From positions 7,381,501 through 7,445,500 of the forward strand of contig NZ_CP108080.1 of assembly GCF_036181745.1 (NCBI RefSeq): DNA of 64,000 bases. The letters are read 5' to 3'. The translations under genes were made by a program, and so were the position numbers. Positions 53,045 through 55,899 of this stretch are shown one piece after another. Below the pieces are notes generated by a model. That model saw only the letters and a list, made by a program, of their open reading frames with translations, was not told the DNA's origin and made no database searches. The DNA comes from Streptomyces sp. NBC_00259 (GTDB taxonomy: Bacteria; Actinomycetota; Actinomycetes; Streptomycetales; Streptomycetaceae). Every line of letters begins with the position of its first letter. The first letter of the stretch is position 1.

Positions 53045-53071
53045 GACAGAGAGGGTCGCTTCTTTGTGACA
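53045..53071 (-). promoter_or_regulatory. ECF41-like promoter ahead of osmC-type gene
   Basis: On the minus strand TGTCACA (53071-53065), a 16-base spacer and TGTC (53048-53045). It differs from the ECF41 consensus TGTCACA-N16-CGTC at one base of the -10 box. The predicted start site is about 50 bases before the OsmC ATG. Confidence 0.4.
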
Positions 53072-53104: not shown

Positions 53105-53213
53105 TTTCCCGGCGCTCCTGGCGGAACCGTGGATTCACATTCCGGGCAGGTGTCACAGCGTGTTGTGCCGCACGGTCTTGATGGCAAAAGCGCCCTGGCC
53201 TCGGCAGAAGGGA

Positions 53214-54110
53214 TCAGTTGTTCAGGGACGCCATATAGTGGGAAAGCTTGGTCGGATTCAATACCCACATGAGCCGGTCGATACCCTTGTCCGACGTTTC
53301 GATGGACAACAGGGCCACGGGGTTCTCGCCATGCAGGACGAGGACAGCCGGCTGGCTGTTGGCCTCCACCCATCGAATGCTGGTATCGGGCCAGAAGCGC
53401 GGTGCGAAGGCGGCAAGGTACTTGGAAACATGGTCACGTCCGACGACCGGGATCTTCGATGCCCCGCGCACTCCTCCACCGTCGGCATAGCTGACGACAT
53501 CGTTGGCGAGAAGCTCTTCCAGCTGTGACAGATTTCCCGTCTGCGCCGCCGAGACGAATGCCTCCATCAGCCGCCGGTGATCAGCTTGGCTGACGGGCTG
53601 CCTGTGCTCGTCGGCCAGGTGTTTCCGGGCCCGGCTCACCAGTTGGCGGCAGTTGGCCTCGCTCGTCTCCAGCATGGTCGCGACCTGCTTGTACGGGTAG
53701 TCGAACGCTTCCCTCAGGATGTACGCGGCTCTTTCCGTCGGGTTGAGTCTTTCGAGGAGAAAGAGCACCGCGAGCTCGAGTGCTTCCTTCTTCTCGGCGC
53801 CGACGTACGGATCCGTGCTCGTATCGATCGGTTCCGGGAGCCAGGGCCCGATGTACGCTTCTCGCCGCACCCTGGCCGACTGGGCGAAGTTGATCGCCAG
53901 ACGTGTGGTGATCGTGGTCAGGAAGGCTGCCGGTTCACGAATGTCGGTGCGGTCGGCATTCTGCCATCGCAGCCAGGCTTCCTGGACGATGTCCTCGGCC
54001 TCCACCGCGCTACCGAGCATTCGGTAGGCGATGCCGAAAAGCTGTGGGCGCGCTGCGGTGAACTCCCTCGCGGCCTGGTCGAGCGAGGATGTGCCGTTCC
54101 CAGCGTGCAT
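53214..54110 (-). CDS. ECF41-type RNA polymerase sigma factor with SnoaL-like tail
   Basis: Protein of 298 residues. Sigma-2 (LFGIAYRMLGSAVEAEDIVQEAWLRW), the ECF41 linker signature WLPEP at about 100, and sigma-4 (RLNPTERAAYILREAFDYPYKQVATML) are followed by a SnoaL/NTF2-like domain. That domain carries the DGGG motif (SYADGGGVRGAS) and an NPDKL-like NPTKL near the C-terminus. In this group the tail modulates activity in place of an anti-sigma factor. The ATG at 54110 has AAAGGG five bases upstream; upstream ATGs at 54137-54140 do not. The adjacent AhpD-fold gene with a matching promoter is the usual ECF41 partner. Confidence 0.9.
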   Translation of the reverse strand: MHAGNGTSSLDQAAREFTAARPQLFGIAYRMLGSAVEAEDIVQEAWLRWQNADRTDIREPAAFLTTITTRLAINFAQSARVRREAYIGPWLPEPIDTSTDPYVGAEKKEALELAVLFLLERLNPTERAAYILREAFDYPYKQVATMLETSEANCRQLVSRARKHLADEHRQPVSQADHRRLMEAFVSAAQTGNLSQLEELLANDVVSYADGGGVRGASKIPVVGRDHVSKYLAAFAPRFWPDTSIRWVEANSQPAVLVLHGENPVALLSIETSDKGIDRLMWVLNPTKLSHYMASLNN

Positions 54111-54526
54111 GGTTTCCCTTTCGGCCTCTGGGTTCATCATGCTACAAACCGGGAAACGGCACAGTTTCTACGATCACGGATTCCCCGACGCGGGTGATTG
54201 CCTTCGATTCCCAGGGGCAGGCGGACACACTGTTGTCGATTACGGAAGGCTTTGCCGGGTGGGCGATGGGGACTCGTCTGCGGGCGCGACCGTTGCGGAA
54301 GCCACCTACTCATGACTGACTCCCCGTACGGCCTGCAGCCGTAGGTTCGCTCTCGACGCAACTTACGTTCCATGATGGCTCGTTCAGGTTTGCCTGACCG
54401 TCAGTCCCTGAGTCCCTGAGTCCCTCAGTCCTGAGTCCGTCCGGCCTGTCCCTCTGTCCGTCTCCGCGCCGATGGTCGGGGGGCGCGGAGACGGACATCC
54501 CACCCCTCATGGGTGGGTATCTCTGG
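54111..54526. other. Intergenic region between sigma factor and decarboxylase genes
   Basis: No gene is supported in these 416 bases. The stretch contains AGTCCCTG-type tandem repeats at 54403-54434 and the decarboxylase terminator hairpins at 54456-54517. No ECF41-type element was found ahead of the sigma gene itself. Confidence 0.6.
54456..54517. terminator. Double hairpin terminator of the decarboxylase gene
   Basis: GTCCGTCTCCGCGCC (54456-54470) pairs with 54482-54496 in a 15-bp stem. A second stem, CCCACCC (54499-54505) with GGGTGGG (54511-54517), lies nearer the decarboxylase stop at 54527. Confidence 0.7.
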
Positions 54527-55038: not shown

Positions 55039-55065
55039 GACGGGACAGCCCGGCAAGCTGTGACA
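55039..55065 (-). promoter_or_regulatory. ECF41 promoter, TGTCACA-N16-CGTC
   Basis: On the minus strand TGTCACA (55065-55059) is followed after exactly 16 bases by CGTC (55042-55039), matching the published ECF41 consensus. It lies about 40 bases before the AhpD-fold gene start. Confidence 0.8.
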
Positions 55066-55126
55066 GGAGGTAGATGTGACCTGGATCACATCTGCTGGTC
55101 CTGTCTTCTCGGAACGGTGCGGGCGG

Positions 55127-55168
55127 TGACCCCGTGACCCCGTGACCCCGGACCCCGTGACCCCGGAC
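55127..55168. repeat. GTGACCCC tandem repeats
   Basis: Three consecutive GTGACCCC units followed by GGACCCC and GTGACCCC variants; a simple low-complexity run in the intergenic region. Confidence 0.7.
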
Positions 55169-55452
55169 CACCGTCGGCCGTGATCGCACCGTCGCCGACC
55201 GATGTGATCCATCACCTGAGGCCACAGCCGCGTCCCGACGTCCTGGGAGCGCAACGGCAGGTGGCCTACGCGGAGACGGCGTAGTCTTTCCAGATATCCG
55301 GCCGTGCCGTCGACAGCCAGGGCGCGGACGACGATGACGGGTGCCTGATCCACGCGACGAGGCAGCTCCGGGCCACACAGGCTGATCCCGGTAGCTGTGG
55401 TGCGGCTGGCTGATCGGCTCTGCGTATCGGCGCCGAGACCGGAGGTGACGTG

Positions 55453-55899
55453 ATGCCGAACAACGAACCGGCGGCAAACTCCCCGGGAGGACAGGGGCAG
55501 CGATCCGAGGCCTGGAAGACCGCGGTCACCGTCATTCAGGAGGCCAAGCCACCCTCCTTCCCGGAGGGAGCACATGCCATGACTCTCCTCGTCGAGTTTC
55601 CTCCCGGCGACGCTGGCACCCCTCCGCACCGCCACTTCGGGCCGGCCTTCGGCTACGTCCTGGAAGGCGAGATGCTGTTCGAGCTGGAGGGTGAACCCGA
55701 GCGCGTGATCCGCGCCGGGGAGGCGTTCTGGGAGCCCGGCGGCGACGTGATCCACTACCAGGACGGCAACAACCGTACGGACGTGCCCAGTCGGTTCATC
55801 GTCACGATGATGTGCGAGCCGGACAAACCCATGCTCGTCCTCGTCGACGAGGACGAGTTGGAGCAACGCAAGGACAGGCGGGCCCCACGCCCCTCCTGA
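55453..55899 (+). CDS. Cupin-domain protein
   Basis: Protein of 148 residues with cupin motif 1 (GTPPHRHFGPAFGYVLEGEM, residues about 56-75: two His and a Glu as metal ligands) and motif 2 (PGGDVIHYQDGNN). A small metal-binding beta-barrel, probably cytoplasmic. GGAGG lies seven bases before the ATG. Function within the cupin superfamily is not determinable; ECF41 neighbourhoods often include small oxidative-metabolism proteins. Confidence 0.8.
   Translation: MPNNEPAANSPGGQGQRSEAWKTAVTVIQEAKPPSFPEGAHAMTLLVEFPPGDAGTPPHRHFGPAFGYVLEGEMLFELEGEPERVIRAGEAFWEPGGDVIHYQDGNNRTDVPSRFIVTMMCEPDKPMLVLVDEDELEQRKDRRAPRPS

Follow-up and report, generated by a model that had tools for sequence, protein, structure and literature searches.

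The 64,000-nucleotide stretch of the Streptomyces sp. NBC_00259 genome analysed here (the window; NZ_CP108080.1, positions 7,381,501 to 7,445,500) contains a gene for a full-length ECF41 sigma factor of 298 aa, hereafter sigma A (P0001; 53214..54110, minus strand), that is preceded by a gene of the AhpD-fold/carboxymuconolactone decarboxylase family (P0002; 54527..55000, minus strand) and followed by an OsmC-family gene (P0003; 52553..52987, minus strand). The AhpD protein matches Pfam CMD (4.7e-20) and TIGR00778 ahpD_dom (3.7e-19) and contains a CGFC (CxxC) motif, and P0003 matches Pfam OsmC (5.5e-18). The other scanned neighbours of sigma A are a cupin and a LacI-type regulator; a CxxC-containing COE gene thus adjoins the sigma gene, and no anti-sigma gene adjoins it.

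Sigma A scores above the cut-offs of two profiles, TIGR02957 SigX4 (355.8 bits, cut-off 323.25) and PRK09636 SigJ (296.4 bits), and of Pfam Sigma70_r2 and r4_2, and carries a C-terminal SnoaL-like extension whose match to SnoaL_2 (5.6e-5, 24.1 bits) is slightly below the cut-off of 27. The DGGG motif of the ECF41 group is found at residue 210. The linker motif WLPEP (PMC3426412) is present at residue 90, and the extension motif NPDKL (PMC7730460) is present with one substitution, as NPTKL, at residue 285, in agreement with the earlier note, which had listed WLPEP, DGGG and an NPDKL-like tail. The protein also matches the structure of Mycobacterium tuberculosis SigJ (PDB 5xe7; 5e-44) over residues 13-242. 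A second ECF41 factor, sigma B, is encoded 12 kb from sigma A and is 56% identical to it, and the ECF41-like sigma C contains DGGG and NPDKL and lacks WLPEP. Relatives of sigma A are also found in four Streptomyces plasmid records (three with 68-72% and one with 57% identity); judging by product names, the neighbourhood on plasmid SAT1 is a different gene set.

A TGTCACA-N16-CGTC sequence, in agreement with the ECF41 consensus of TGTCACA-N16(+/-1)-CGTC before the COE gene, lies in front of the AhpD gene as the earlier note had claimed, on the minus strand from 55065 to 55039 (TGTCACAGCTTGCCGGGCTGTCCCGTC), with 38 nt between its 3' end and the AhpD ATG (55000). It is the sole match to TGTCACA-N14-18-CGTC in the window and scores 24.5 against the position weight matrix (PWM) of the clade sites, the lower quartile of which is 24.1. 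On its own, the string is weak evidence because shuffled windows gave a mean of 0.30 matches, and 27 of 100 contained at least one. A sigma-70 promoter scan gave no match, and there is no further site scoring at least 6 by the PWM between positions 53901 and 55500. The cupin gene (55453-55899, plus strand) appears by eye to belong to a family with an upstream motif in ten other genomes, and no upstream site scoring at least 6 was found for it here. Short tandem repeats, also noticed by eye, flank the AhpD gene at 54399-54435 (GTCCCTGA-type) and 55125-55175 (GTGACCCCG-type).

The sigma gene had been described as lying directly downstream of its target, which is correct with respect to gene order; the two genes are, however, separated by 416 nt that include a strong hairpin with a 16-bp stem (54455..54497, minus strand), perhaps a terminator. 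The 81-nt stretch containing this and a second, 7-bp hairpin has a minimum free energy of -50.3 kcal/mol (z -5.83, equalled in none of 200 shuffles). The hairpin was missed by a terminator scan that looks for U-tracts, the single terminator-like match of which is elsewhere. Its position between the genes argues against simple co-transcription, so that the sigma A gene is probably not simply co-transcribed with AhpD, and an AhpD-sigma A operon was rejected on these grounds.

The more general pattern TGTCACA-N16-BGTC occurs three times in the window, compared to a mean of 0.12 in shuffles, none of which (0/100) reached three. The second site (TGTC at -10; 53045..53071, minus strand; PWM score 23.9) precedes the OsmC gene, a predicted second target, and 16 of 28 OsmC rows, the present one included, have a site no more than 200 nt from the start. 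The third (GGTC at -10; 53151..53177, plus strand) points antisense into the sigma A gene with no credible ORF behind it (cluster C36, a 65-codon ORF with a coding score of -4) and may be due to chance or give rise to an antisense RNA.

The complete genome (8.16 Mb) contains 23 such sites and a single match to the reversed pattern. Ten of the 23 fall within 26.9 kb (7434545-7461454; binomial 1.7e-19), an island that starts inside the window and extends past its end. These sites are located, in order, before genes for OsmC, (the orphan match), AhpD, sigma B, sigma C, WhiB, an NAD(P)-binding epimerase-like protein, an SdhA/FrdA-like flavoprotein, a ferredoxin-reductase-like protein and an Ohr peroxiredoxin; past the window end (7447738-7461454), the genes from sigma B to Ohr each lie behind TGTCACA-N16-KGTC. 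Among the 13 sites outside the island is that of an unlinked AhpD paralogue (80% identical; 6397462-6398001) whose ATG is preceded at almost the same distance by an exact CGTC motif, and three more precede similar long genes (beginning at 2360951, 2363739 and 5351313) that by eye look PAS/phosphatase-like and whose sites have a -10 of the clade type. In this genome, a scan with variable spacers yields as many as about a dozen matches for individual spacers other than 16, and some of these 13 sites are therefore surely due to chance.

Relatives of sigma A, defined as P0001 matches above 400 bits, are present in 36 of 199 genomes of the same genus, and we compared the regions of 31 relatives together with the present one (32 of 38 listed sigma A loci), picked by similarity of the sigma factor and not by the motif. 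In the 31 relatives' regions, TGTCACA-Nk-BGTC is found 198 times with k=16 and only 4, 3, 2 and 1 times with k=15, 17, 14 and 18, respectively; the remaining spacers between 6 and 26 give 0 to 25 matches, and the maximum, at k=11, we attribute in large part to a second GTC within the N16 sites. The reversed pattern at N16 is found twice. According to a rough gene caller, 194 of the 198 sites are intergenic, compared to 20% of bases; this base rate was used because decoy sites with other spacers are unfit as a control, 98 of 100 being intergenic as well, probably as most of them share the -35 element of an N16 site. The possibility that the sites are copies of a repeat element was rejected in view of 398 distinct 27-mers and low information across most of the spacer.

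The same spacing is seen in a second collection of 79 loci from named organisms, the genomes of which are partly shared with the first set: 260 sites at N16 vs 5 each at N15 and N17 in 60 Streptomyces-type loci, and 21 vs 0 and 1 in 19 loci of other genera (Nocardioides, Catellatospora, Microbacterium and others). At the place examined, no site is present in 28 of the 59 Streptomyces-type loci and in 8 of the 19 from other genera; five of these 19 have no site at all, and neither does the sigma A region of genome G032. In the other genera, a site follows the sigma gene within 350 nt in 11 of 19 loci, in nine of these before an epimerase gene. Given that this plain ECF41-COE arrangement (sigma, site, epimerase) has the wider spread, the island looks like an expansion within Streptomyces.

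At AhpD itself, the motif is similarly spaced from the start codon (beginning 61-91 nt upstream) in 27 of 42 usable rows, including the two copies of this genome, and absent in 15; matches starting past residue 25 were left out of this comparison, row G118 was discounted as a slice artefact, and a few genomes are represented twice. This retention lifts the AhpD site above chance; a chance origin is ruled out by the fixed spacing and the conservation in relatives rather than by the lone CGTC string, and the sequences therefore provide good support for an ECF41-type promoter upstream of AhpD.

The 208 sites in the 32 regions lead to 207 candidate ORFs, which form groups that were named from one scanned representative each. 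The largest groups of predicted targets are epimerases (30 sites in 20 genomes), ECF41 sigma factors (23 in 18) and flavoproteins (22 in 21), followed by cupins, AhpD and methyltransferases (10 sites each), cytochrome b and pyridine-nucleotide oxidoreductases (9 each), ferredoxin reductases (8), a short protein (7) and Ohr, OsmC, FdxA ferredoxin and WhiB (6 each). The ranking is similar in the named-organism set (281 sites, 21 of them unassigned or lacking a good ORF).

The motif, its fixed spacing and conserved position, its clustering and its co-occurrence with the sigma factor can be read directly from the genomes, and from them we infer recognition by sigma A and/or sigma B, release of a brake and a physiological role. 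The AhpD site is likely to constitute the -35 and -10 elements of an ECF41-dependent promoter and to belong to a multi-promoter redox regulon read by sigma A and/or sigma B. Control of activity by the C-terminal extension has been shown for the Bacillus licheniformis and Rhodobacter sphaeroides proteins (PMC3426412). Under this scenario, both sigma factors would be restrained by the SnoaL-like domain at their own C-terminus until a signal releases the brake. The released factors would then direct RNA polymerase to TGTCACA-N16-[G/T/C]GTC and thus serve the promoters of AhpD, OsmC, Ohr, flavoproteins, the ferredoxin-reductase-like gene, the epimerase, WhiB and the sigma genes themselves, the outcome being a coordinated response to redox stress or organic peroxides.

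Site numbers follow the presence of the sigma factors. Genomes with sigma A contain a mean of 14.9 KGTC sites (n=36) compared to 3.1 in those with neither A nor B (n=155; p 1.4e-16), with p-values here and below overstating independence because the relatives share ancestry. There are exceptions, namely G105, with 13 KGTC sites and neither sigma factor, and G160, G052, G186, G101 and G032, with sigma A and 2-5 sites. The KGTC promoters might instead be read mainly by sigma B (or C), with sigma A a passenger or one of several overlapping readers, an alternative to which we assign a modest chance. Genomes with both A and B indeed contain more sites (mean 19.0, n=19) than those with A only (10.4, n=17; p 2.5e-4), and sigma B and sigma C of the present genome have upstream sites of their own; against this, the A-only genomes are still well above those with neither (p 2.9e-7), and the B-only genomes have a mean of just 6.25 (n=8), one of them with 20.

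The -10 element at AhpD deserves separate consideration. With the present region included, the four bases after TGTCACA-N16 are GGTC in 171 cases, TGTC in 35, GGAC in 6, AGTC and CGAC in 5 each and CGTC in 2, with rarer others, such that GGTC or TGTC accounts for 206 of the 208 BGTC sites and CGTC for two. The AhpD rows have CGGTC in 21 cases, CTGTC and CCGTC in two each and others in two; both CCGTC rows are the AhpD copies of this genome, and the relatives have CGGTC in 21 of 25 and CCGTC in none. The clade norm at AhpD is thus CGGTC, and what the earlier note had called a textbook match to the consensus is a local variant of a conserved promoter: the identification as an ECF41-type promoter holds at the level of sequence, and "textbook" is misleading, the more so as AhpD is one of many predicted targets. 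A switch of the AhpD site to another ECF41 factor with a preference for CGTC, so that the island sigma no longer reads it, would account for the two CCGTC copies and for the observation that CGTC counts hardly track sigma A (3.9 sites per genome with sigma A vs 3.1 with neither A nor B, p 0.02). We regard this as rather doubtful, given that the site otherwise agrees with the clade matrix and that relative G153 has a nearly identical spacer with TGTC at -10.

An ordinary module in which sigma A controls only AhpD seems unlikely. It would conform to the published generalization of one ECF41 factor, one target (Wecke et al., 2012; PMC3426412) and to the consensus given there, and AhpD upstream of the sigma gene in the same orientation is the commonest COE arrangement (107 of 373; PMC3426412); the locus, with a second site before OsmC, ten predicted sites in 27 kb and many more in relatives, where AhpD is often kilobases from the sigma gene, does not appear to fit. 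That TGTCACA is the operator of a DNA-binding regulator rather than a -35 element is highly improbable: the 7-mer is the most constant part of the site, but the exact 16-nt spacing to a GTC -10, the position before start codons and the transcription starts mapped in two species (PMC3426412) all speak for a promoter.

ECF41-dependent regulation from multiple promoters thus remains the preferred reading, and "one ECF41, one target" is a generalization, not a defining feature of ECF41. The locus resembles the Ecf41Bli-ydfG and Ecf41Rsp-RSP_0606 modules in the sigma2-sigma4 architecture with WLPEP and an extension of about 100 residues, and ECF41/COE modules more generally in the CMD target with CxxC, the TGTCACA-N16 promoter and, as those modules are portrayed in that source, the lack of an adjoining anti-sigma gene (PMC3426412). 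Unlike those modules, it would include many promoters with a -10 that is mainly CGGTC or CTGTC, several sigma paralogues per island, some of them truncated in relatives, and predicted targets beyond carboxymuconolactone decarboxylases, oxidoreductases and epimerases (PMC3426412). RpoE9 of Sinorhizobium meliloti is likewise preceded by a CMD gene with a matching promoter; it has, in contrast, a single target with which it is likely co-transcribed (PMC6180224). Effects of an ECF41 factor beyond one neighbouring enzyme are also on record for Azospirillum RpoE10, where they concern lateral flagella (cited in PMC12826043 and PMC8999054). An ECF41 regulon island of this kind was not found described in the covered parts of the open-licence ECF41 literature, a scope outside of which the main classification paper lies. 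A possible link to light regulation by LitS was dropped because nothing in the literature listing pointed there.

The group comprises about 400 proteins from 10 phyla, and its signal is described as unknown (PMC3426412). With a single target for each of the tested factors, from B. licheniformis and R. sphaeroides (PMC3426412) and S. meliloti (PMC6180224), there have been few clues to it. The present comparison suggests that a type of sigma factor thought to control one neighbouring gene controls a whole redox-defence set here, and signal and function become directly testable through this gene set, its sharply defined promoter motif and the availability of genomes that either contain or lack the sigma factor.

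Several relatives encode ECF41-like proteins that end early (9 of 66 frames in the 32 regions). Seven of these have a normal start, six of which stop aligning at P0001 residues 201-219 and one at 166; the two without an N-terminal match were left out of the sigma tree. In this tree, the short pair from G019 and G149 branches off, fully supported, outside the A+B clade, and the other short copies are found inside the B clade among full-length proteins, with forks that are partly open. The C-terminal extension was thus likely lost twice, possibly more often. Some of these copies end close to the truncation points that increased activity in laboratory experiments: shortening to 204 or 206 residues led to a rise of about 20- and 120-fold, whereas a form of 192 residues showed lower activity again, and none was left once the extension had been removed completely (Wecke et al., 2012; PMC3426412). 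The short copies may accordingly be unlocked sigma factors, an evolutionary counterpart of the 2012 experiment, or decaying genes; their dN/dS of 0.41-0.55, calculated for aligned frames that reach upstream of the start codons, hints at selection and may favour the former. We tentatively put forward the possibility that in Streptomyces the ECF41 one-component sigma factor evolved from a switch for a single gene to a self-amplifying regulon island, in which paralogous sigma factors, some behind a shared promoter, feed dozens of redox genes, and that paralogues that have, apparently repeatedly and at about the same residue, lost the inhibitory C-terminal domain are naturally unlocked.

Four short sigma genes have no motif near their frame starts, the frames beginning upstream of the start codons, and a KGTC site is located roughly 200 nt upstream of the short copy in G172. 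The present genome itself encodes, outside the island (6854059-6854730, plus strand), an ECF41 paralogue with a diverged tail whose alignment ends after about residue 239. A motif site is located downstream of this gene and precedes one that looks, by eye, similar to the patatin-like targets found in relatives.
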